The notes under the pieces: model-generated
Databases searched by the model: none
Seen by the model: only the letters and a program-made list of their open reading frames with translations
Told to the model about the DNA's origin: nothing
Part shown: positions 1,652 through 23,248 of the stretch, piece by piece
How the letters are laid out: every line of letters begins with the position of its first letter
Position numbering within the stretch: position 1 is the first letter of the stretch
Program-made: the position numbers and the translations under genes
From: a virus
Strand: one strand, 5' to 3'
Virus record (IMG/VR): IMGVR_UViG_3300042328_000232
Location: 1-23,641 of that record
Length of the DNA: 23,641 nucleotides

Positions 1652-2791
1652 ATGACTCCAGAGCAATCGGCACTGTTAGAAAATCAATTAGATGTAACAG
1701 GAGTTCCGCAAAGTACATTTAAAAGTACCGATTACGGTAAATATACTATTGATCAATTATCCTATCCTGACGGGCTGGATAATATGACCGAGTATGGCGG
1801 TAATAAAGTAATCTTCTATATTAACATTGCCAATGCCTCTAAGTTTCAAGCAGATCCTGCTGGTGGCTCAATTGATATGCGAGACTTGGATGTACCTAGA
1901 CATCGAGGAGAAGTTGTTGCAACTGATTTAGGATTAAATGGATGGGGAACTGTTGGTAGCGCGGTTGGCGTAGCAGTTGGTGCTAAAATGCTGTCGGGTA
2001 TCGCTAACAATGGCGGTATAATGGGTTCGTTCGCTAAAGCAGCGACATCAACGTTGACAAAAATCGGAGTCGGTACAGTCGCAGGTGGTGCAGTATTAAC
2101 AGGTGCTGCAGCATCAATTTCAGGCACTACAACGAGGGATCAAAGAAGATTAAAAGCGGCAATTGCTCTTCACGTGCCACATAATCTTTCTATTCGATAT
2201 ACCGCAGATTGGCAATCAGATGAAATGCTAGGTGCATCTATTGCTGAAGCAGGATTGGATGCAATGGGATTGATTAAATCTGTCAATGAGAACAATAATA
2301 GCAATTTAACGGATAGCGGCATGAAATCTATTGCCACAAGTCTTGGTCTATCTAAATTACCAGGCGGTAATTACGCTTCAGCTAAATCAGGATTAGCGTC
2401 CAATCCAAGAAAGGAATTATTATTCAAAGGCGTTGATTTCCGCACCTTCAATTTTGACTATTCATTTTTCCCGAGAAGCGAAGCAGAAGCAAAGAATGTT
2501 GAAAATATTATCAAAACATTCAAGTTTCATATGCACCCAGAATATAAAGATGCAGGTAAGTTTCTATACTTATACCCATCAGAATTTGATATTTCTTATT
2601 ATACCAATGATGGCGAAAATCAACATATTCATAGACATACTTCCTGTGTATTAACAGAAATGAATATTAACTATACGCCAAATGGTAATTTCAATACTTT
2701 TAGAAATGGTATGTCCACGCAAGTTAATATTTCATTATCATTCAAAGAATTGGCACTTATGTCTAAAGAAATGATTCAAGAAGGTTTCTAA
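1652..2791 (+). CDS. gp48: Baseplate tail-tube cap gp48
   Basis: The 379-residue protein is close to T4 gp48 (364 residues), which caps the central hub and, with gp54, forms the platform on which the tail tube grows. The C-terminal half carries the family signature: 'NPRKELLFKGVDFRTFNFDY', then 'FFPRSEAEA', 'FKFHMHPEYKD', 'FLYLYPSEFDI', 'HRHTSCVLTEMNINYTP' and 'SLSFKELALMSKE'. Residues about 95-160 form a Gly/Ala-rich, weakly hydrophobic insertion ('VGSAVGVAVGAKM', 'GVGTVAGGAVLTGAAASI') just before the 'IALHVPHNLSIRYTADWQ' strand. It might be a buried or flexible linker rather than a true membrane helix. It is the first gene of the rightward hub operon, with a late promoter and an AAAGG ribosome site upstream. 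Its stop overlaps the gp53 start by one base (TAATG). Confidence 0.93.
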   Translation: MTPEQSALLENQLDVTGVPQSTFKSTDYGKYTIDQLSYPDGLDNMTEYGGNKVIFYINIANASKFQADPAGGSIDMRDLDVPRHRGEVVATDLGLNGWGTVGSAVGVAVGAKMLSGIANNGGIMGSFAKAATSTLTKIGVGTVAGGAVLTGAAASISGTTTRDQRRLKAAIALHVPHNLSIRYTADWQSDEMLGASIAEAGLDAMGLIKSVNENNNSNLTDSGMKSIATSLGLSKLPGGNYASAKSGLASNPRKELLFKGVDFRTFNFDYSFFPRSEAEAKNVENIIKTFKFHMHPEYKDAGKFLYLYPSEFDISYYTNDGENQHIHRHTSCVLTEMNINYTPNGNFNTFRNGMSTQVNISLSFKELALMSKEMIQEGF

Positions 2792-3282
2792 TGTATTTTG
2801 ATAAGTTCCCAAAAATATTATATGAATTTAATATAAATGGTGTTGATACTGCCATTTATTTAACTGATATAACTCGCAACATTCGATTTAGACGAGATGT
2901 ATTATCGAATATTTCCGTCTATGATTATTATGATATTCAGGATGGTGATACGCCTGATAAGATTGCGGAACTTGTCTACGGTAATGCAAAATATCACTGG
3001 ATAGTCATGTTAATGAATGATTGTTACGATTATCGAAACGATTTTCCAATGACTACGCACACGCTAGAAAAATATATTCAGAGTAAATATGGCGATGATC
3101 TGTATGCTATACATCATTATATTGATGATAATGGCTATATCGTCAATTCTGATTATTCAGGTGCAACGTCAGTTTCTAATTATGATTATGAAATGAACGT
3201 CAATGAAACTAAGCGCAGAATAAAAATAGTTCCCAAAGAATTAATAGACAAAGTATTATCCGATTACGATAAATTAATATGA
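2791..3282 (+). CDS. gp53: Baseplate wedge subunit gp53 (LysM-like fold)
   Basis: The 163-residue protein belongs to the T4 gp53 family (196 residues in T4), which clamps neighbouring wedges together around the hub. The start 'MYFDKFPKILYEF' and the central 'VYDYYDIQDGDTPDKIAE' followed by 'VYGNAKYHWIVMLMNDCYD' are diagnostic. This second part (residues about 48-78) has the pattern of a LysM-like domain: a 'DGDTPDKIAE' helix and a 'YHWIVMLMN' strand, known in gp53 as a structural fold rather than proven sugar binding. The C-terminus ends 'ETKRRIKIVPKELIDKV'. The ATG overlaps the gp48 stop, and its own TGA overlaps the next ATG by four bases (ATGA), so translation is coupled at both ends. Confidence 0.93.
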   Translation: MYFDKFPKILYEFNINGVDTAIYLTDITRNIRFRRDVLSNISVYDYYDIQDGDTPDKIAELVYGNAKYHWIVMLMNDCYDYRNDFPMTTHTLEKYIQSKYGDDLYAIHHYIDDNGYIVNSDYSGATSVSNYDYEMNVNETKRRIKIVPKELIDKVLSDYDKLI

Positions 3283-4556
3283 ATGATACTACAAAATTAG
3301 TCAATGCAGGTGACGTATCTGTTGATGAGGTTGTAATTACTACCTCTCGGGGATTCTATCAGGACATCACCAATCAAATCATTGGTATTCAGATATTTGA
3401 AGATATATTCTCGCCTTTTATAACAGGCACATTGTCAATTAAAGATGGCTTGGATTTAATGAATGCCTTTCCATTTCAAGGCGAAGAATATCTTGAGATG
3501 AAAATATCTACACCAACATTGAACTCAGGTAATATTGATAACAAATATTATATATTTAAAATGTCAAATCGAGTCATGTCAGGTGATAGAGCAACTGTCT
3601 ATGATTTACATTTTATATCGGAAGAAGCAGTCATCGATGTCAATAAAAAGATTAGTCGATCTTATGGCGGTAAATGTTCTGATATTGCCAAGAAATTAAT
3701 TCAAGATGATGAATTTGGTCTACAGGTAAAAAGACCTGTTTATATTGAGGAAACTAAAAATTCAACGAAATTCATTTCTAATTTTTGGTCGCCTGTATTT
3801 AATATAAACTATTTGACCGAAACATCCATCAATTTAAATGGATCAGCTTCTTATCTTTTTTATGAAGATAGAAATGGATTCAATTATGTGTCAATGGAAT
3901 CATTGTATAGAACAGAAATCTATCAGGATTTCATATACGATAATTATGTTCGCGATATATTACCTGATGGCACTGCAGTAAGAAATATTCATCAAGATTA
4001 TAAACGCATTCGTGACATTAAAATCCCCGTTGCCTATGATTATATCGAACGCGCAAGAAATGGCATGTTTGGTTCAAGAATTGTAACCTACGACACGACC
4101 ACTAAAATTTATAACACTAAAAATTATGATATGCTACAAACGTTCAATGATCAGTATCATTTGAATAATTATCCCGTAGCATCCAGTAAAAATATATACA
4201 AATATAATTCTTTAATCATCACTATGCCAAAGTATAGTGGTAGTTTCAGCGGCTGGGGTGATGTCACCAACGCTAGTTCAATTCAGAATAGAACATCATT
4301 GATGACCATGCTCAATGCAAATAAAGTTGAGATTACAGTACCAGGTCGGTGCGATTATACGGTAGGCATGAGAATACAGGTCACTTTGTATAAAGTTCAA
4401 CCAGAAGATAAAACGGATACCGATTTAATTGATAATATGTTTTCTGGTTCTTATCTAGTTACCGCCATTAACCATTATATTAATAAGAATACGCATGAAT
4501 GTACAATGGAAATCGTCAAGGATTCCTTGTTAATTGATTTGAATAGGACAAAATAA
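3279..4556 (+). CDS. gp27: Baseplate central hub protein, gp27-like
   Basis: The 425-residue protein (T4 gp27 is 391) sits directly before the gp5 OB-fold gene, as expected for the trimeric hub that holds the spike and adapts six-fold wedges to the three-fold needle. The N-terminal part has 'VDEVVITTSRGFYQDITNQI' and 'IQIFEDIFSPFITGTLSI', followed by 'DLMNAFPFQGEEYLEMKI', a pattern I recognise from hub proteins of T4-like aquatic phages. The C-terminal part 'VEITVPGRCDYTVGMRIQVT' resembles the second tube-like barrel domain typical of hub proteins. 'YLVTAINHYINKNTHECTME' near the end matches the closing strand of phage hub/late-control (gpD/VgrG N-terminal) folds. Assignment rests on these patterns and on synteny; sequence identity with T4 gp27 itself is expected to be low. 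Confidence 0.8.
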   Translation: MNDTTKLVNAGDVSVDEVVITTSRGFYQDITNQIIGIQIFEDIFSPFITGTLSIKDGLDLMNAFPFQGEEYLEMKISTPTLNSGNIDNKYYIFKMSNRVMSGDRATVYDLHFISEEAVIDVNKKISRSYGGKCSDIAKKLIQDDEFGLQVKRPVYIEETKNSTKFISNFWSPVFNINYLTETSINLNGSASYLFYEDRNGFNYVSMESLYRTEIYQDFIYDNYVRDILPDGTAVRNIHQDYKRIRDIKIPVAYDYIERARNGMFGSRIVTYDTTTKIYNTKNYDMLQTFNDQYHLNNYPVASSKNIYKYNSLIITMPKYSGSFSGWGDVTNASSIQNRTSLMTMLNANKVEITVPGRCDYTVGMRIQVTLYKVQPEDKTDTDLIDNMFSGSYLVTAINHYINKNTHECTMEIVKDSLLIDLNRTK

Positions 4557-4557
4557 T

Positions 4558-5238
4558 ATGTTGTACTTAGGATGTTGTGAAAATAGGTTAGATCCACTCA
4601 AACTTGGTAGATGTCAAGTAAGAATATCGGGTTTACATACCGAAAATAAAACCATTCTACCGACCGATGAATTGCCTTGGGCGATTACCATGATGCCAGC
4701 CCATAATGCATCAATATCAGGTCTAGGATGGTCGCCAACAGGTATAGTTCCTGGTACTTGGTGCGTTATTGATTTTCTGGATGATTCACAACAACAACCA
4801 ATTATTATGGGTACTATTCCTGGCATTCCACACACGCGAACAGCGGCATTCATCAATGAAGCATCCAATAGCATTGTTACTACCGATGAAGCAGGGGAAT
4901 TAGTTAGTTCTAATGGTGATAGTCTATCCAGCATATTTGAATCCTTGCTAACATCAGATGCACAGGTTGATGTACAAGAAACAGGTAGCAAATATCAAAT
5001 TAGCGCAGTATCAACTACAACGGATTCGGGTACAACCGTTAGTTATAGTATTGTAAGAATTGGCACTAGTGAGAAAATTGCAACTGCTACCTATGATGAA
5101 ACAACGCAATTATATTCTGTTACCTTATTGAAACCAGAAGATTATACACAAGAACAGTATTTGCCATTCGCGGGTAATACATTAAAAACATTTGCATCAA
5201 CACAAGAAATAACAACCTATTTCGATACCAATTTCTAA
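4558..5238 (+). CDS. Baseplate hub/spike OB-fold protein (gp5 N-terminal part as separate gene)
   Basis: The 226-residue protein corresponds to the N-terminal OB-fold domain of T4 gp5. The match is clear over residues 1-100: 'CCENRLDPLKLGRCQVRISG', 'LHTENKTILPTDELPWAI', 'MMPAHNASISGLGWSPTG', 'VPGTWCVIDFLDD' and 'QQPIIMGTIPGI'. In T4 this barrel joins the spike to the gp27 hub. T4 gp5 continues into a lysozyme and a needle in the same chain; here the chain instead continues into about 120 further residues of Ser/Thr-rich, weakly conserved sequence that end in 'TFASTQEITTYFDTNF', and the enzymatic needle is encoded by the next gene. The tail may form the interface to that protein (inference). 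The gene begins one base after the hub stop, and nine bases separate its stop from the next ATG, with an AAGGA ribosome site between. Confidence 0.82.
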   Translation: MLYLGCCENRLDPLKLGRCQVRISGLHTENKTILPTDELPWAITMMPAHNASISGLGWSPTGIVPGTWCVIDFLDDSQQQPIIMGTIPGIPHTRTAAFINEASNSIVTTDEAGELVSSNGDSLSSIFESLLTSDAQVDVQETGSKYQISAVSTTTDSGTTVSYSIVRIGTSEKIATATYDETTQLYSVTLLKPEDYTQEQYLPFAGNTLKTFASTQEITTYFDTNF

Positions 5239-5247
5239 GGACATATA

Positions 5248-8034
5248 ATGGCAGATCCAATTGAAAGCACGCCTATTCCAGATACTCCACCTTCGGGGTC
5301 GGGCGCAACTAAAGATGCAATGCGTGGTATTGCTGCGATTAAAGCAGCGTGTGATGCTGGTGGACTAACTTCAAAATATGCCAAATGTTCTTTATTGGGT
5401 ATTATCGGGGTTGAAAGTAAATGGGTTCCTGTTGAAGAAATTCATAAGTATAGCTACAAGAATCTTAAATCAAAACCAAGAGTATCGGAAGAAGATGCTA
5501 TAAAATATTCTTATGATAAAGGCGCTGGCGTATCTAAACAAGAATTTTTTGGTTGGTTCTATGGCACTCGTAATGGTAAAGCACCTGCTGCCGGTCAGTA
5601 TTATGGCAGAGGATTCGTGCAATTAACATGGAAAGAAAATTATGCCGCTCTGGGTAAATTGACTGGCTATGATTTAGTTAATGATCCAAGTTTAATGGTT
5701 GGTACTACCGATCAAGCGATGGAAGTTTGCGCTAAGGTTGCCGTTGAATTTATTAAAATGAGAATTCCAGATTGGAAATCTGAACAATGGAAACCAGGGT
5801 TTATATTTAAGGCAATGCATGCTGTAAATCCAGGCGATCCAACGGGTTCTTCTTCGCATCAATTAAAATTATCTTACTATGAATATTTTCTCGGTGGCAA
5901 AGCAGCACCTGCACCGTCCGATAAAGATGCCGCAAATACTACCGTTAATAAATCAAAATCAGAAATAAACTCAGCGCCACCAGCAAAACGAGAAGCATAT
6001 ACAGAAGACAGAACTTCTAACTTTTCTGATTATGGGTTTTGCGATCCAGAAGGAAAATATCCACTCAGAGATTATATGAATGAACCTGATACTAATCGCT
6101 TAGCGAGAGGTATTATTGATGGTACGCACATAAAATTTAAAGATTCAACACGCAAACTTAATATTCCAACCGCAAATGGTGGCTATTACGATCAGCCACA
6201 ATCTGCTTATAATACAGTATATCCTTACAATAAAGTAATGGAATCGGAATCAGGTCACGTACTTGAGTTTGATGATAGCCCAGACGGCGAACGAGTTAAT
6301 CTCTATCATAGAAAAGGTACGTTCATTGAAATAGACCCAAATGGTACACAAGTCAATTATATTGTCGGTGATGGGTTTTGGATTACCGAAAGAAATGGGA
6401 ATATATTCATTAATGGTACTGCCAACTTAACAGTATCTGGCCCAATGAATATTTTGTGTCAAGGTGATGCTAATCTTGAAGTAAAAGGTCAAGTAGACGC
6501 AGTATTCCATAATGACGCAAATATTGGCGTTGCTATGGATTTAAATGTTGCTGTGGGCGGTGATTATAATGTACTAGTCGAAGGAAATTATAATATCGAA
6601 GTTGGCAAGACAATGAATACCCGAACTATCGGCACAATGTCATTAGAATCGACTGATGCATTAAAACTAAAAACTGCAAAATCAATGTCATTGGAAGGTG
6701 GCGATACACAATCTACAGCCGAAACTCTAATGAAAATGTCAAGTGCTATTCGATATGAAACATCAGACGCATTTGAAATTAAAGCAAAATCATTTAAAGT
6801 TGAAGTTGAAGAAACTGCAGAAATTAAAAGTAAAACTACACAAATTGATACATCAGAAAAATTAATTTTAAATGCATCGGGCAATTTAGAAGCGAAAGGC
6901 CAACAGATTCAATTGAATAGCGGAGAATCTTATACGCCCATTACACCAATTGATAATCTTGGCGAACCAAAGAAACCTGTTGATTTTGCTGGTAATGAGA
7001 TTGATGGCAGAGAAAAAGAAAATGTATTGGTTGATACAGTATTAAATCCTGCTGGAGAATACAACCCAAATACACTACCTAAGAATGTCATTGATTCCGT
7101 ATTGGGTGATATTCCATTATCAAGTGATGCATTGTCTACATTTGGTGGCAGTACACCTAATGTATACGATTTAAAATATTCTGGACCAGTTGAGAACAAA
7201 ACTTCGTTAGCAGCGGCAAATAGTGCAAGCAGTCATCGATTGGTCGTGCCTAAACCAGAAGCAGCCTATAATCAACCATTTAAAAATTTAACACCGCCCG
7301 CAAGACACACGGATGCTGTTTATAAGTATGAAGAAGAATCAGATTGGTTGACCGCTTCTGGTCAAAAAGCAAAAAAAGAAATGACATCAACCAGCGATTA
7401 TGAGCATAATGGTGGAGTGCCAAGCGAACCATCAGAATCTTATTCTGGTACAGGTGGATCTAGTTCAGTATCAAATGTACCATCGGATAAATTAAATGAA
7501 ATTAATAATAGCGAAGAATTTCCTGCTAATTTTAAATTGAGTGATAATTTTACATTGGGTATGTTAGTACACCAACAAGGACATATTCTACAAAATACCA
7601 CTTTACCCGATGGGCAATATACTAAACAGAAATTAGTTGCAAATCTATCCGCATTGGCTATTAATATTCTAGAACCCATTTATAAAGAATTAGGACCATG
7701 TAAACAACAAGGTTCTGGTATCTGGCAAATTACATCGGGTCTAAGAAATGAAAAAACGGGTAGCGATCATAACAAAGGTTGTGCGGTTGATATTCAATTA
7801 ACTACTAGAGATATCAATCAACAATATGATTTATGTAAGAAACTTGAAAAATTATTACCTTATCATAAAATATTATTTGAATATAGAAATAATGGTACAA
7901 GTAATTGGATTCATATTTCTTATGTAAGCGAAGGAAGGATGAAGTTATGTTCCACTATGATCGATGATAAAATTGTCGATTCTAAAGGTAGCATAACGCA
8001 CGGATCGACGGGTATTAATTTATTTTATGTCTAA
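5248..8034 (+). CDS. Tail spike with GH19-type muramidase, gp5-like needle and M15-type peptidase domains
   Basis: This 928-residue protein has three recognisable modules. Residues about 25-215 resemble GH19 chitinase/lysozyme domains: 'GVESKW' with probable catalytic Glu56, and 'YYGRGFVQLTWKENY' at 118-132. Residues about 330-460 match the T4 gp5 triple-stranded needle: 'GHVLEFDDSPDGERVNLYHR', then short strands of eight-residue type such as 'NGNIFINGTANLTVSG' and 'NYNIEVGK', with further needle-like repeats to about 560. After a disordered Ser/Glu/Pro-rich linker (about 560-760), residues 770-905 form an M15 (VanY/D-Ala-D-Ala peptidase-like) domain: 'SGLR' at 830, 'SDHNKGCAVD' with His841 and Asp848, and 'NWIHIS' with His889, the expected three zinc ligands. 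T4 gp5 has a single lysozyme. The combination suggests cleavage of both glycan and peptide bonds while the tube penetrates the murein. Catalytic assignments come from motif pattern only. The last eight bases overlap the PAAR gene. Confidence 0.85.
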   Translation: MADPIESTPIPDTPPSGSGATKDAMRGIAAIKAACDAGGLTSKYAKCSLLGIIGVESKWVPVEEIHKYSYKNLKSKPRVSEEDAIKYSYDKGAGVSKQEFFGWFYGTRNGKAPAAGQYYGRGFVQLTWKENYAALGKLTGYDLVNDPSLMVGTTDQAMEVCAKVAVEFIKMRIPDWKSEQWKPGFIFKAMHAVNPGDPTGSSSHQLKLSYYEYFLGGKAAPAPSDKDAANTTVNKSKSEINSAPPAKREAYTEDRTSNFSDYGFCDPEGKYPLRDYMNEPDTNRLARGIIDGTHIKFKDSTRKLNIPTANGGYYDQPQSAYNTVYPYNKVMESESGHVLEFDDSPDGERVNLYHRKGTFIEIDPNGTQVNYIVGDGFWITERNGNIFINGTANLTVSGPMNILCQGDANLEVKGQVDAVFHNDANIGVAMDLNVAVGGDYNVLVEGNYNIEVGKTMNTRTIGTMSLESTDALKLKTAKSMSLEGGDTQSTAETLMKMSSAIRYETSDAFEIKAKSFKVEVEETAEIKSKTTQIDTSEKLILNASGNLEAKGQQIQLNSGESYTPITPIDNLGEPKKPVDFAGNEIDGREKENVLVDTVLNPAGEYNPNTLPKNVIDSVLGDIPLSSDALSTFGGSTPNVYDLKYSGPVENKTSLAAANSASSHRLVVPKPEAAYNQPFKNLTPPARHTDAVYKYEEESDWLTASGQKAKKEMTSTSDYEHNGGVPSEPSESYSGTGGSSSVSNVPSDKLNEINNSEEFPANFKLSDNFTLGMLVHQQGHILQNTTLPDGQYTKQKLVANLSALAINILEPIYKELGPCKQQGSGIWQITSGLRNEKTGSDHNKGCAVDIQLTTRDINQQYDLCKKLEKLLPYHKILFEYRNNGTSNWIHISYVSEGRMKLCSTMIDDKIVDSKGSITHGSTGINLFYV

Positions 8035-8332
8035 AGTAGCAAGAAAAAATGGTGCAGATACTGTAAATACAGGACATGGATGCGATTCTACAACAGTGAC
8101 CGATGTAGGTTCTAGTTCTGTATTTGTCAATGGTATAGGCGTTTGTAGGAAAGGTGACAGAATTAAAATACACACTATACCATCGGGTTCAAGTTGTGTA
8201 CCACATACTGCTGTAATTAATGTAGGTTCTAGTTCTGTATTTGTCAATGGTATTGCAATTGCCAGACTTGGTGATTCAGCTGATGCGGGTAATATTTCGT
8301 CGGGTTCAAATAATGTATTTGCAGGTGGGTGA
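8027..8332 (+). CDS. gp5.4: PAAR-repeat spike-tip protein (gp5.4-like)
   Basis: The 101-residue protein is a PAAR protein like T4 gp5.4 (97 residues), which sharpens the tip of the trimeric needle and binds one metal ion. It has the two-lobe layout of the family: 'VGSSSVFVNGIGVCRKGDRI' and a second 'VGSSSVFVNGIAIARLGDSA', each after a 'T.V.DVG'-like strand, and it ends 'SGSNNVFAGG'. Possible metal ligands are the His/Cys residues in 'TGHGCDS', 'IKIHT' and 'SSCVPHT'. The two lobes are identical over 34 bases of DNA. The ATG lies inside the last codons of the spike gene, which points to coupled and roughly matched synthesis of needle and tip. Confidence 0.93.
   Translation: MSKVARKNGADTVNTGHGCDSTTVTDVGSSSVFVNGIGVCRKGDRIKIHTIPSGSSCVPHTAVINVGSSSVFVNGIAIARLGDSADAGNISSGSNNVFAGG
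8103..8136 (+). repeat. 34-base direct repeat in PAAR gene, copy 1
   Basis: The sequence from 8103 to 8136 is identical to 8220-8253. The copies are 117 bases (39 codons) apart and in the same frame, and both encode VGSSSVFVNGI. Identity down to third codon positions suggests recent duplication or gene conversion between the two PAAR lobes. Confidence 0.9.
8220..8253 (+). repeat. 34-base direct repeat in PAAR gene, copy 2
   Basis: Second copy of the repeat at 8103-8136, with no mismatches. It encodes the second PAAR lobe. Confidence 0.9.
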
Positions 8333-8616: not shown

Positions 8617-9009
8617 ATGGCAAGAAACACTAGACTCTTTTCAGACTTAGATTTGAACTTTACAGCACATCCTGTTACGGGCGATGTTGCTATGCGCTAC
8701 GATGAAAATGCAGTAAAGACGGCTGTCAAGAATCTAGTCCTGACTCAAAACTATGAAAGACCGTTTCATTCTGAGATTGGTTCGCCGATCCATGCCTTAC
8801 TATTCGATCTATCGTCGCCGCTGCTTGCATTCTCATTGAAGCGAGCCATTGTAGATTTGGTGAACAATTTTGAACCCAGAGTAAATCTTCAAGATGTCGA
8901 GGTCAGCGTATCTCAACCCAATAACTCGGTTTACGTGTCAATTTACTTTACTGTATTGAACACAATTAACCCAATAAAATTAGACCTTGTACTAGAGAGA
9001 TCCAGATAA
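8617..9009 (+). CDS. gp25: Baseplate wedge subunit gp25
   Basis: The 130-residue protein is nearly the length of T4 gp25 (132 residues) and carries the strongly conserved features of this sheath initiator family: 'LDLNFTAHPVTGDVAMRYDE', 'NLVLTQNYERPFHSEIGSPI', and the invariant 'EPR' (Glu86-Pro87-Arg88) in 'NFEPRVNL'. gp25 joins gp6 and gp53 in the inner wedge and provides the first handshake strands for the contractile sheath; related proteins (TssE, GPW) do the same in type VI secretion and other contractile tails. It is the first gene after the late promoter at 8585, and its TAA overlaps the gp6 ATG by one base. Confidence 0.96.
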   Translation: MARNTRLFSDLDLNFTAHPVTGDVAMRYDENAVKTAVKNLVLTQNYERPFHSEIGSPIHALLFDLSSPLLAFSLKRAIVDLVNNFEPRVNLQDVEVSVSQPNNSVYVSIYFTVLNTINPIKLDLVLERSR

Positions 9010-10832
9010 TGGCAAGCAAGAAAATAAATGTATCTGAATTAGATTTTGATAATATTAAACAGAATCTAAAAACCTTTCTACAAGGTCAAGAAACGTTTCA
9101 AGATTATAATTTTGAAGGTTCTGGTCTGTCGGTATTACTTGATATTTTAAGTTACAATACTCATTATAACAATTTGTATAATAACTTAGCAGTCAATGAA
9201 ATGTTTCTGGATTCTGCCAGAAAAAGAAACAGCGTTGTATCATTGGCTAAGATGTTGAATTACGCCCCAAAATCTGCCGCTTGTTCTAAAGCATTAATTA
9301 CTTTAACCGTAACTACGCCATCTGCTGGCCCAGCATATCTCGTTCTGCCGTCAATGACGCCGTTTACTACTATTATCAATGGTAGTTCATATACATTCTA
9401 TACCAAATCTTCTTATACTGCGGTTGGTTCGACTTCCTATACATTCAGCGACGTAGAAATTGTGGGTGGTACACCATTATCATTTAAATATACAGTAGCA
9501 GTAGGTTCTAAATTCATTATTCCTAACCAGAATGTTGATACGTCCACAATGAATGTAAGAATTCAAGAAAGCGAATCATCTTCTGTAGTGACTTCGTTTA
9601 ATTTAGCAGAGAATATCACTAAAATTAAATCGACCTCAAATGTATATTGGGTAAAAGAAATTGATAATGGTCTATATGAATTAACCTTCGGCGATGGTAT
9701 TATTGGCACTGCATTAACCAATGGTAATATCGTGCATATTGACTATATGATTTCTGATTTGGGTGCGTCCAATGATGCGAAAATATTCTCTTATAATGGT
9801 TCGCCTTTATTATCGGGTAATACTATTGTTGTAGCGACACAATCGCCTGCATCGGGTGGCGTTAGTGCCGAAGACATTGAATCAATTCGTTTTGTTGCAC
9901 CTAAGTTTTATTCTGCACAGAACAGAGCTGTCACAGCCGAAGATTATGAATCTATAATCTACGCTAATGTACCTTATGCAGAATCTGTTTCAGTTTGGGG
10001 GGGAGAAGATGCAGTCCCACCAATCTATGGGAAGATGTTTATCTGCGTAAAACCTTATAATGCGGATGTATTAACGCCATTACAAAAAACTGAATTATTA
10101 AGCACCGTTGTACATCCAAAAGCAGTGTTAACCATCACACCAGAAATAGTAGACCCAGAATATATCAATGTTGTTATAGATTCTACTGTTTATTATAATG
10201 AATTTGAAGCAATTAGAAGTGCGACTGATATTCAAACTATTGTTAAGGATGCAATTATCAATTATGATAATACTGAATTACAACGATTTGATAAAGTATT
10301 GCGTTATTCAAAATTGACTAAATTAATTGATGAATCAGAACCATCAATCATAAATAATATTACAACCGTTATATTAAAACGGTCGGTTGTGCCTAAATAT
10401 AATGTAACTGCAACTTATACCATTAATCTATTAAATCCAATTTATTCTTCCGGCGTTGCAGAAGATTCTGTATTAAGTTCTGGTTTTTATATTGCTGGTA
10501 ATACTAATCTGCATTATTTGGTTGATGATGGAGTCGGCGGTATTAATTTATTCTATATCTCAAGCAATCAAAGAGTTGTTACCAAATATAATATTGGTAC
10601 GGTCGATTATGCGAACGGTATTATTACGATTAATGGATTAAATATTACTTCAGTATATGGTAATAAATTTATATTTACTATTAAACCACAATCTAATGAC
10701 GTTGCATCTATTTTTACGCAGATTGTTAGAATTTCACAACCGGAAATAATCATTAATGTACTGCCCGATTCTTCCGCCAATGGCGATTTTCGTGGCGGCA
10801 CAAATTATAAATTTACATCGGCAAGAATTTAA
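9009..10832 (+). CDS. gp6: Baseplate wedge subunit gp6 (baseplate J-like)
   Basis: The 607-residue protein (T4 gp6 is 660) has the family start 'INVSELDFDNIKQNLKTFL' and then 'GSGLSVLLDILSYNTHYNN', which form the helical N-terminal part of the wedge core. 'ELTFGDGIIGTALTNGNIV' near residue 220 and the 'VTAEDYESIIYANVPYAESV' segment near residue 315 are the conserved baseplate-J elements. gp6 dimers join adjacent wedges into the inner ring and drive the hexagon-to-star change during contraction. The later part (residues about 470-607) is Asn/Ile-rich and ends in 'NGDFRGGTNYKFTSARI', the usual C-terminal pattern. Overlaps with gp25 and with the next gene (TAATG at both ends) suggest coupled translation. 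Confidence 0.95.
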   Translation: MASKKINVSELDFDNIKQNLKTFLQGQETFQDYNFEGSGLSVLLDILSYNTHYNNLYNNLAVNEMFLDSARKRNSVVSLAKMLNYAPKSAACSKALITLTVTTPSAGPAYLVLPSMTPFTTIINGSSYTFYTKSSYTAVGSTSYTFSDVEIVGGTPLSFKYTVAVGSKFIIPNQNVDTSTMNVRIQESESSSVVTSFNLAENITKIKSTSNVYWVKEIDNGLYELTFGDGIIGTALTNGNIVHIDYMISDLGASNDAKIFSYNGSPLLSGNTIVVATQSPASGGVSAEDIESIRFVAPKFYSAQNRAVTAEDYESIIYANVPYAESVSVWGGEDAVPPIYGKMFICVKPYNADVLTPLQKTELLSTVVHPKAVLTITPEIVDPEYINVVIDSTVYYNEFEAIRSATDIQTIVKDAIINYDNTELQRFDKVLRYSKLTKLIDESEPSIINNITTVILKRSVVPKYNVTATYTINLLNPIYSSGVAEDSVLSSGFYIAGNTNLHYLVDDGVGGINLFYISSNQRVVTKYNIGTVDYANGIITINGLNITSVYGNKFIFTIKPQSNDVASIFTQIVRISQPEIIINVLPDSSANGDFRGGTNYKFTSARI

Positions 10833-21187: not shown

Positions 21188-22594
21188 ATGTCTACATTAA
21201 CACTTAGAACGGCAAAAGGTTCTCCATTAACAAATGCTGAGGTAGATGCCAACTTCACTAACCTACTTGTTGCTTTAGGTGGCGTAAACACATCTCCTTA
21301 TACTGTTCCAACGCCAACAGGTACTGGTAGCCCAGTTTTATCTACTGCGCCAACGCTATCGACTGCGTATATTGGTACACAAGCAAATGCTACCAGATTT
21401 CCACATGCTTTAGCAGTCGTTGCTAGTACTGCTTCTGGTATTCAATATAATGAAAGTCACAACATTGGTTTAATTGCCGAGGGTACTGCCCATGCTTCCG
21501 ATGCCAACGTTTATGGTATTGGTTTATATGGCGTTGGCTATACTTCTGCTACTACGCGTTGTGGTGGCGTAGTTGGTGGAGCACATGTATCGGCAAGTTC
21601 TGATGTTGGTTCTGCTATCGGTGTTAGAGGTTATTCAAATGATACTCATGCTGGTGGATTAAATGTTGGTTTATATGGCGACGCTACAAGCGGTTCATCA
21701 AACTATGCTTTATATCTGAATAGCGGTGACATCTATACGGCAGGTGCTAAATCTTGGTTACTAAATGGAAATTTATCATTCAGCGGCGCATACAGCGTTA
21801 GTATTCCCACATTAAATCTAACCAATGCATTGGGTACTGCTAATGGTGGTACTGGTTTAACAACAGTCGGTACTGATGGTCAAGTATTAACCAGTAATGG
21901 TACTACTTTATCATGGGCAACACCTGCATCTGGATTACCCACACAGACTGGTAACGTTGGTAAATATCTAAAAACTGATGGCTCTACTGCTTCTTGGGAT
22001 GCATTGGATATTTCTACCTCGGATATTTCCGGTGCATTGGGTACTGCTAATGGTGGTACTGGTTTAACAACAGTCGGTACTGATGGTCAAGTATTAACCA
22101 GTAATGGTACTACTTTATCATGGGCAACCCCATCAGGCGGTGGTGCTACATTATCCGATGATACTGCAACTAACGCCACGTATTATCCAACATTTGCCAC
22201 TGCTACTTCAGGTAGTATGACTACTGCTAAGGTATCGAGCACACAGTTACAGTTCAATCCTAGTACTGGTATGTTCAGTGCAACCAATTTTACCTCATTA
22301 TCCGATGCTTCTTTGAAGGAAAATGTACAACATATAAATAATCCTATAGATACATTAAATCAATTAGAGGGCGTATCTTATAACTGGAAATCAAATGGGT
22401 TATTAAGTTATGGTTTCATTGCTCAAGAAGTCGAAAAAGTATTGCCTGCTATTGTTGCAACTGATGATGCCGGTATTAAAAGCATTCAGTATAATTCATT
22501 AATTGCATTCTTAACAGAAGCAGTTAAACACCAGAATTCTGTCATTGAAACTTTGGATACTCGTCTAAAGGAACTTGAAAAACCTCGTCAATAA
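21188..22594 (+). CDS. Tail fibre protein with C-terminal S74 intramolecular chaperone
   Basis: The 468-residue fibre starts 'MSTLTLRTAKGSPLTNAEVD', a common phage fibre N-terminus that precedes 'ANFTNL'. Residues about 40-210 are Gly/Ser/Thr-rich beta sequence, probably the shaft and receptor-binding part. Residues 213-315 contain two copies of a collar-type unit ('LGTANGGTGLTTVGTDGQVL'). The C-terminal part is an S74 chaperone: 'SDASLKEN' with Ser372 and Lys377 (the Ser-Lys cleavage pair spaced five apart), 'GYNW-like' 'VSYNWKSNG' and 'YGFIAQEVEKVLPAIV'. The S74 domain trimerises the fibre and then cuts itself off. A final coiled-coil stretch ends in 'TRLKELEKPRQ'. A good AAGG ribosome site precedes the ATG. 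The next gene repeats this C-terminal module. Confidence 0.9.
   Translation: MSTLTLRTAKGSPLTNAEVDANFTNLLVALGGVNTSPYTVPTPTGTGSPVLSTAPTLSTAYIGTQANATRFPHALAVVASTASGIQYNESHNIGLIAEGTAHASDANVYGIGLYGVGYTSATTRCGGVVGGAHVSASSDVGSAIGVRGYSNDTHAGGLNVGLYGDATSGSSNYALYLNSGDIYTAGAKSWLLNGNLSFSGAYSVSIPTLNLTNALGTANGGTGLTTVGTDGQVLTSNGTTLSWATPASGLPTQTGNVGKYLKTDGSTASWDALDISTSDISGALGTANGGTGLTTVGTDGQVLTSNGTTLSWATPSGGGATLSDDTATNATYYPTFATATSGSMTTAKVSSTQLQFNPSTGMFSATNFTSLSDASLKENVQHINNPIDTLNQLEGVSYNWKSNGLLSYGFIAQEVEKVLPAIVATDDAGIKSIQYNSLIAFLTEAVKHQNSVIETLDTRLKELEKPRQ
21826..21921 (+). repeat. 96-base perfect direct repeat, copy 1 (fibre collar unit)
   Basis: Bases 21826-21921 are identical to 22033-22128. The offset is 207 bases, a whole number of codons, so an exchange between copies would delete or add 69 residues in frame. 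It encodes the collar unit beginning with ALGTANGGTG. Confidence 0.92.
22033..22128 (+). repeat. 96-base perfect direct repeat, copy 2 (fibre collar unit)
   Basis: Second copy of 21826-21921 with no mismatch. Between the copies lies a short unit with 'GLPTQTGNVGKYLKTDGSTA', an alternative collar segment. Confidence 0.92.
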
Positions 22595-22636: not shown

Positions 22637-23248
22637 ATGGCAATAAAAGTAAGCGGGACAACCGTTATAGACGACACTCGTGCGTTAACTAATATTACAT
22701 CCGCAACATTCTCAGGTGCATTATCTGTTGGTAGTACACCTTCCACCGGTACTGCTGGTCAAGTATTAACATCTGCTGGTGCTGGCGCTGCTCCTACATG
22801 GTCAACCGTATCATCTGGCAGTAGTGCTACTTTATCTGACGATACTGCGACTAATGCAACCTATTACCCAACATTTGTGACTACTACTTCAGGTAGTATG
22901 ACTGCTGCTAAAGTATCAAGCACACAGTTACAGTTCAACCCTAGTACTGGTATGTTCAGTGCTAAAAACTTTACTTCATTATCTGATGCGACATTGAAAG
23001 AAAATGTTGCGCCATTGGTTGGTTCATTGGCTGTATTGAAGCAGTTGGATGGTGTATCATACGATTGGAAAGACAATGGTATGGTTGGCTATGGTTTCAT
23101 TGCTCAAGAAGTCGAAAAAGTATTACCTGCGATCATTGCTACCGATGATGCTGGTATTAAAAGTATTCAATATATTTCACTGATTGCTTTCTTAACAGAA
23201 GCGGTAAAAGAATTGAGTGACCGAGTAGCAACTCTGGAAAACAAATAA
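22637..23248 (+). CDS. Short tail fibre protein with S74 chaperone, paralogue of preceding gene
   Basis: The 203-residue protein begins 'MAIKVSGTTVIDDTRALTNI', a fibre-tip N-terminus common in T4-like phages, followed by one collar unit ('TAGQVLTSAGAGAAPTWSTV'). From about residue 57 onward it is a close copy of the C-terminal part of the previous gene: 'ATLSDDTATNATYYPTFV', 'VSSTQLQFNPSTGMFSA', and the S74 pair Ser116/Lys121 in 'SDATLKEN', then 'YGFIAQEVEKVLPAII'. It has almost no receptor-binding region of its own, so it may be a minimal fibre, a chaperone-only trimerisation unit, or a leftover from module exchange. The C-terminal 'AVKELSDRVATLENK' is a coiled coil. A strong AAGGA ribosome site lies upstream. 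Confidence 0.9.
   Translation: MAIKVSGTTVIDDTRALTNITSATFSGALSVGSTPSTGTAGQVLTSAGAGAAPTWSTVSSGSSATLSDDTATNATYYPTFVTTTSGSMTAAKVSSTQLQFNPSTGMFSAKNFTSLSDATLKENVAPLVGSLAVLKQLDGVSYDWKDNGMVGYGFIAQEVEKVLPAIIATDDAGIKSIQYISLIAFLTEAVKELSDRVATLENK

Follow-up and report, generated by a model that had tools for sequence, protein, structure and literature searches.

When the phage T4 tail contracts, the gp5 needle is forced across the outer membrane; gp5 itself is cut between S351 and A352, and its lysozyme, which the needle keeps at about 10% activity, is freed when the needle dissociates (PMC3004832). Virion lysins of Gram-negative phages typically carry one lytic domain, and virion endopeptidases come almost only from phages of Gram-positive hosts (PMC6116005, 2018). 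Virion lysins with two lytic domains are reported, without exception, from phages of Gram-positive hosts (PMC5380687, 2017). Here we analysed IMG/VR virus record IMGVR_UViG_3300042328_000232 over its full 23,641 nucleotides (the window), focusing on the open reading frame (ORF) at 5248-8034. We predict with high confidence that it encodes a gp5-type central spike carrying two peptidoglycan hydrolases of different chemistry, a GH19 glycan hydrolase and an M15 metallopeptidase, which would form a two-enzyme murein-breaching device at entry. All of its parts belong to known families. In the literature covered, which was partial, we found no paper on a gp5 spike that combines them, GH19 with M15, and none on a PAAR-M15 protein.

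A gp5 needle between two enzyme domains

The ORF spans exactly 5248-8034 on the plus strand, is intact, and encodes a protein of 928 aa (P0001). The domains of this protein and of its upstream partner (P0002) are as follows.

4558-5238, plus strand: OB-fold half of the split gp5 (P0002), 226 aa (Pfam Gp5_OB, 4e-17; phrog_430 over residues 21-188, 4e-39)
5248-8034, plus strand: needle half of the split gp5 (P0001), 928 aa, in the order GH19, neck, needle, linker, M15
5311-5895, plus strand: GH19 domain, residues ~22-216 (Pfam, alignment A1, AlphaFold, Foldseek, PDB profile)
5413-5415 and 5437-5439, plus strand: GH19 catalytic codons for E56 and E64
6028-6126, plus strand: neck GFxDPxGKYP...EPDTNRLARG, residues 261-293, matching the C-terminal part of Gp5_OB (positions 79-110 of the model)
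6163-6927, plus strand: gp5C-type trimeric beta-helix needle, residues ~306-560 (T4 gp5 PDB matches, phrog_430, period-8 signal)
6928-7512, plus strand: linker of mixed composition, residues 561-755
7513-8031, plus strand: M15 metallopeptidase domain, residues ~756-928 (phrog_894, alignment A2, Pfam M15_3, structural model, Foldseek)
7768-7770, 7789-7791, 7879-7881 and 7912-7914, plus strand: M15 motif codons for H841, D848, E878 and H889

A Pfam scan of the whole spike protein returned Glyco_hydro_19 (2.2e-6), the C-terminal piece of Gp5_OB at residues 261-295 (8e-6) and a weak gp5 trimerisation match. Among PHROGs, it matched phrog_430 ('baseplate hub subunit and tail lysozyme') at residues 305-546 (5e-55), flanked by two endolysin families, phrog_181 at 21-150 (2e-20) and phrog_894 at 757-897 (7e-11). 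In a search of PDB sequences, the needle matched T4-type gp5 (1e-16 to 1e-18; best 2.5e-18) and the N-terminus matched GH19 chitinases, while NCBIfam gave no matches. The sequence-only reading had placed a gp5-type beta-helix needle between the two enzymes, and the needle matches bear this out. It had also called the protein a tail spike; it is a central (gp5) spike with its OB fold on a separate gene and not a receptor-type tailspike. Relatives were collected from IMG/VR as a family set of 80 loci, including near-duplicates, with 50 distinct full-length proteins. A second contig is 100% identical across the ORF, and the module order is retained in ~70 further viral contigs and in the isolate Synechococcus phage BUCT-ZZ01; together, the identical contig and the many relatives rule out an assembly artefact and exclude chance.

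The GH19 assignment had first been proposed from E56 and from YYGRGFVQLTWKENY at residues 118-132. Both are found at these positions, and Pfam, the PDB profile search and Foldseek agree with the assignment. In alignment A1, which covers the GH19 region of 45 IMG/VR homologues, E56, E64, Y68, GRG at 120-122, Q125 and T127 are invariant, and the protein carries the YxGRGxxQLT motif of endolysin-type GH19, with its GRG, Q and T conserved. Pfam detected GH19 in 44 of the 45. AlphaFold block means of predicted local distance difference test (pLDDT) scores are mostly >90 over residues 11-210, the top Foldseek matches are phage GH19 endolysins (8p8e at 3.9e-5, 9eoi, and 4ok7 from SPN1S), and the A1 profile matches 8p8e in the PDB at 7e-20. 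The modelled structure thus indicates a GH19 fold. Both E56 and E64 are glutamate in 81/82 homologues aligned there, the lone exception being the degenerate L099. This locus lies on a Bacilli metagenome-assembled genome contig, where ORF 4288-6924 encodes a gp5-like needle protein and the OB fold is on a separate 229-aa gene; its GH19 domain (residues 567-852) lacks the two catalytic glutamates and retains little of the GRG..Q motif, and is apparently a pseudo-enzyme.

The M15-like C-terminus had been proposed from H841, D848 and H889. These residues stand where they had been placed, the domain matches phrog_894, and the SxHxxGxAxD ... E ... WxH zinc/catalytic motif of M15 is present. In alignment A2 (M15 region, 46 IMG/VR homologues), H841, D848, E878, W887 and H889 are invariant, and H841, D848, E878 and H889 are identical in 133/133 homologues aligned there. 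Pfam Peptidase_M15_3 was found in 15 of the 46, and the A2 profile recovers a free-standing M15 protein of BUCT-ZZ01 (2.8e-24) that itself matches Pfam M15_3 at 2e-16. The AlphaFold model of the M15 fragment has a mean pLDDT of 89.5; Foldseek sets it beside proteins of the LAS fold, to which M15 peptidases belong, with hedgehog domains and the zinc DD-peptidase 1lbu (prob 0.97) ranking highest at E-values of 0.012-0.018. Because median pairwise ratios of non-synonymous to synonymous substitution (dN/dS) are 0.089 for GH19 and 0.077 for M15, both enzyme domains are under purifying selection; the needle median is 0.042.

Between the two enzymes, a hydrophobic period of 8 residues runs through 376-560 and is gone in 561-755. 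The neck piece of Gp5_OB is present in 45/45 homologues, and the most conserved stretches are GFxDPxGKYPLRDYxNEPDTNRLARG (263-288) and the needle start (321-360). The T4 counterpart of the neck, DPTGQYP, lies at about residue 113, ahead of the lysozyme. In KVP40, whose gp5 is without a lysozyme domain according to its record note, the DPxGxYP neck runs directly into the needle. The linker had been described as some 200 disordered residues from which M15 might hang on a tether. Residues 561-660 are indel-rich, and residues 707-755 are G/S/P/T/N/Q-rich, with pLDDT <50 at about 705-720, which fits the tether idea. A block around residues 676-706 (7273-7365), NLxPPxR..YExxxxW, is conserved in most members, so the linker is not disordered throughout. 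The sequence-only reading had not picked up this block, the OB fold encoded next door, or E64 and E878 as further conserved residues of the active sites.

A split gp5 within a baseplate operon

P0001 carries only the neck piece of Gp5_OB. Since the adjoining upstream gene carries the gp5 OB fold, at residues ~1-95 of its product, gp5 is encoded by two genes here. We infer that P0002 serves as the adapter to the hub and tube, with the neck as the probable docking site for an OB trimer. The remaining ~130 residues of P0002 (96-226; window 4843-5238) are without a family match, are conserved in the split clade, and can be aligned to the interval between OB and GH19 in some single-gene relatives.

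In 35 intact loci of the family set, OB, GH19, neck, needle and M15 lie on one gene. The split clade, made up of the window's relatives and L036, whose placement is weakly supported, is nested among these single-gene relatives in a tree of the neck and needle, which indicates that the split is derived. At the gene junction, a Shine-Dalgarno-like AGGA or similar sequence overlaps the stop codon in most members, with the ATG 7-9 nt further on. In the window, the two ORFs are in frame, 9 nt after a TAA. We considered stop-codon read-through joining the OB and GH19 genes and rejected it, as the frame is not conserved: across the clade, the spacing is 7, 8 or 9 nt after TAA or TAG, leaving 14/26 loci in frame and 12/26 out of frame. 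The OB fold is also on a separate gene in the Melnitz phages and in Delftia phage PhiW-14. At L037 (4643-7092), three overlapping ORFs stand in place of what is otherwise a one-gene spike; the closely related L032 is unbroken, and the breaks in L037 are probably sequencing or assembly frameshifts.

The surrounding genes are as follows.

1652-2791: tail tube cap
2791-3282: gp53-like wedge
3279-4556, plus strand: hub/tail protein in the gp27 position (phrog_350, 3.8e-79)
8027-8332, plus strand: plain PAAR tip protein, 101 aa (Pfam PAAR_motif, 1.4e-12; phrog_281, 1e-21)
8617-9009, plus strand: gp25-like wedge (phrog_261, 1e-44; GPW_gp25, 5.8e-11)
9009-10832, plus strand: wedge subunit (phrog_219, 1.8e-166)

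Judged from these matches, the spike gene sits in a baseplate operon of T4 type, on a virus record of 23.6 kb. A gp27 role for the product of 3279-4556 is suggested by synteny with Sinorhizobium phage phiM12. The PAAR gene overlaps the end of the spike gene; its product, in which no M15 domain was found, is the probable needle cap. Further downstream, two tail-fibre-like proteins are encoded one after the other, at 21188-22594 and 22637-23248. A self-cleaving chaperone domain, Peptidase_S74, closes the first; the second has matches to the same PHROG families of fibre C-termini and may be a duplicated fibre end.

This setting bears on whether the enzymes instead serve host lysis late in infection, as an endolysin fused to a structural gene. 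Both domains do resemble phage endolysins, in their matches to phrog_181 and phrog_894 and to 8p8e and the SPN1S enzyme. However, the gene sits in a baseplate operon and is fused to a gp5 needle, and relatives encode separate proteins of endolysin size. Two near-complete relatives (162 and 168 kb; G001 and G002) encode an additional free GH19 protein of 206 aa, and BUCT-ZZ01 encodes a separate free M15 protein of 176 aa, which fits the presence of separate endolysins; no PF00959 lysozyme was found in the near-complete relatives. T4 likewise has gpe besides gp5. We therefore reject a role as endolysin only, and regard late lysis as extremely improbable.

Enzyme exchange among relatives

Across the family set, the spike C-terminus is M15 in 70/80 loci and CHAP in 5/80 (L048-L051 and L061), which keep GH19; the other 5/80 are cut by the contig end. 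Because the CHAP loci group together on the tree, a single exchange of M15 for CHAP would account for them. Outside the window family, the N-terminal slot holds Phage_lysozyme2 in Caulobacter phage Cr30 (5.5e-29) and in L103 (9e-27), each with a C-terminal M15. In a GH19 tree of 23 rows with no outgroup, the spike domains of BUCT-ZZ01, L098 and PhiW-14 cluster with GH19 endolysins that stand alone and are set apart from those of the window family by a branch of 1.31 with support of 100/99. This clustering suggests that GH19 was captured more than once. IMG/VR scans with the Cr30 protein and with the PAAR-M15 proteins described below found only two loci each, and the scan with BUCT-ZZ01 returned mostly unrelated free-standing M15 proteins. 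Both slots swap an enzyme for another of the same broad chemistry (GH19, Phage_lysozyme2 or a VgrG3-like muramidase in the N slot, M15 or CHAP in the C slot), and the arrangement is widespread and modular.

Some further spikes and contigs are recorded here as observations. L106:3980-6670 has a type VI secretion VgrG3-like muramidase domain (PF21277, 2.5e-52) between OB and needle, with a C-terminal M15. L100:5368-7437 and L107:3977-6112 encode spikes with OB, needle and M15 that share an N-slot region, ..PEKxAGILxxxHxxGTxxxIxxV..YNxGY.., which is not named by Pfam (L100 scanned) and is possibly another enzyme. A cyanobacterial host was considered via psbA; no PF00124 was found in ten relatives' contigs, including the 162 and 168 kb ones.

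Several points weigh against two active murein hydrolases. The window protein itself matches M15 in Pfam at 0.21, which misses the cut-off, the A2 profile has no match among PDB sequences, and the M15 Foldseek matches are non-significant by E-value (best 0.012; 1lbu 0.018). Members of the GH19 family can cut chitin-type as well as murein glycans. The Melnitz phages have a VanY on the OB protein in addition to M15, placing VanY/M15-type domains in both slots, and pf16 has M15 only; strict pairing of a sugar-cutting with a peptide-cutting enzyme is therefore not a rule. Finally, the KVP40 spike has no enzyme and the L099 GH19 is degenerate, so spike enzymes are not always needed. Such tolerance of lost activity would be expected if one or both domains here were structural leftovers without catalysis. 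With the catalytic residues invariant at the counts given above and dN/dS medians <0.1, we consider this very improbable.

M15 is also found at the tip of other phage spikes. PAAR-M15 fusions occur in the phages Astolliot, Milchi, PA5oct and Voja-6, in Vibrio phages 1.244 and 207E48.1, and in the IMG/VR loci L108, L150 and L151. Our own hidden Markov model places the PAAR-fused M15 in the same family as the spike M15 (3e-24 to 2e-28 for isolates). No locus has M15 on both needle and PAAR: the spike is without M15 in all six PAAR-M15 loci where it is visible, and PAAR is short and plain in 64/64 PAAR ORFs seen in the needle-M15/CHAP family. The PAAR-M15 proteins of L085, L086, L090, L091, L092, L096, L108, L150 and L151 are 328-340 aa long with M15 C-terminal, and the record of the PA5oct protein carries the mark ESI-MS/MS (electrospray ionisation tandem mass spectrometry). 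In L085 (Pseudomonas phage Astolliot, OM982621), the GenBank record has no annotation for a 423-aa gp5-like ORF (OB and needle; about 2-3.2 to 4.4 kb), which falls in a gap between annotated genes. L094:4090-5649 (Sinorhizobium phage phiM12) encodes a 520-aa protein with a C-terminal M15 (8e-19) beside gp5; this M15 lies off the needle and outside any PAAR that was detected, and represents a third placement of the peptidase.

These placements also bear on the idea that only one domain cuts the wall, with M15 acting on protein, for example as a maturation protease that cuts the spike or linker it belongs to, or against a surface protein of the host. Processing by proteolysis is described for T4 gp5 (PMC3004832), and the conserved linker block could be a processing site. 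Yet the M15 domain matches an endolysin family and is homologous to the free-standing M15 of BUCT-ZZ01, its replacement by the cysteine enzyme CHAP in one clade suggests a shared murein substrate, and on PAAR proteins it lies away from the gp5 chain. We therefore judge an action on protein unlikely.

Predicted entry role and comparison with known systems

As a two-enzyme entry device, the spike may work as follows. Three copies of P0001 would form the needle, which the separate OB-fold protein would join to the hub, probably at the DPxGKYP...DTNRLARG neck. By analogy with T4, sheath contraction would push the PAAR-capped needle through the outer layers. The tethered M15 domains beyond the needle end would be the first to meet murein and would cleave peptide stems or cross-links, the GH19 domains at the base of the needle would cut glycan strands, and the two together would open a local hole for the tube to follow. 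As the split precedes GH19, a needle that came off the tube would take both enzymes along, which differs from T4. Two enzymes might serve, among other possible reasons, to open murein with modified sugars or cross-links.

We also put forward, tentatively and as an idea that may well prove wrong, that many T4-related spikes are a two-slot murein tool whose geometry sets the order of attack. A tip-side peptidase, carried by the needle tail or by the PAAR cap, would loosen cross-links before the glycosidase at the base acts, and the split in the window clade would let the needle and both enzymes detach as one unit, in contrast to T4, where the lysozyme stays with OB.

Collectively, these findings suggest that a common T4-related spike family pairs a glycan with a peptide hydrolase, and that lineages assemble this pair out of unrelated enzymes. 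Isolates that have a two-enzyme spike, or M15 on tip or needle, infect Synechococcus, Caulobacter, Pseudomonas, Vibrio and Methylophilales bacteria. It can now be tested whether a contractile tail can get across murein with a single enzyme, and why a peptidase is retained at the tip.

The closest described system is T4 gp5 with the PAAR protein gp5.4. Both systems have an OB fold, the neck motif, a trimeric beta-helix needle and a PAAR gene downstream, with a glycan hydrolase between OB and needle, and in both OB and needle end on separate chains (by cleavage in T4, by separate genes in the window). The window spike has GH19 rather than a T4-type lysozyme; GH19 precedes the DPxGxYP neck and the T4 lysozyme follows it, so the two occupy different insertion points. 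As the KVP40 gp5 is also without lysozyme, a T4-type lysozyme is not required for membership in the gp5 type. Unlike T4, the window spike has a second enzyme, M15, after the needle, and its chain break falls before the first enzyme, so that the hydrolase stays with the needle, while that of T4 stays with the OB part.

The hub subunit of BUCT-ZZ01 (UTS51949.1) has OB, GH19, neck, needle and M15 in the same order. It differs in that one gene encodes all 939 aa, with hub subunit as its sole annotation, and in its GH19, which groups with endolysins and suggests independent capture. The baseplate hub subunit and tail lysozyme of Cr30 likewise combines OB, a glycan hydrolase, the needle and a C-terminal M15, although with Phage_lysozyme2 instead of GH19 and on a single gene of 701 aa. 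Two lytic specificities in one virion protein are shared with CwlP of SP-beta, HydH5 and phi11 Gp49 from Gram-positive phages (PMC5380687).

Evolved VgrG and PAAR effectors of the type VI secretion system (T6SS) carry an enzyme after the spike beta-helix or on PAAR, as phages do with M15, and the VgrG2b metallopeptidase family is itself found on VgrG or on PAAR (PMC6899460). PAAR-M15 proteins are the counterparts, in phages, of evolved PAAR effectors. The window protein was considered as an evolved VgrG and rejected, since it lies in a phage baseplate operon on a virus record and its hub gene is separate. T6SS effectors differ in that they are toxins that come with immunity proteins; VgrG2b belongs to the gluzincins (HEXXH) rather than to M15, and showed no murein hydrolysis (PMC6899460). 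Even so, the exchange of M15 between needle tail and PAAR parallels that of T6SS effectors, tying phage entry enzymes to secreted toxins.

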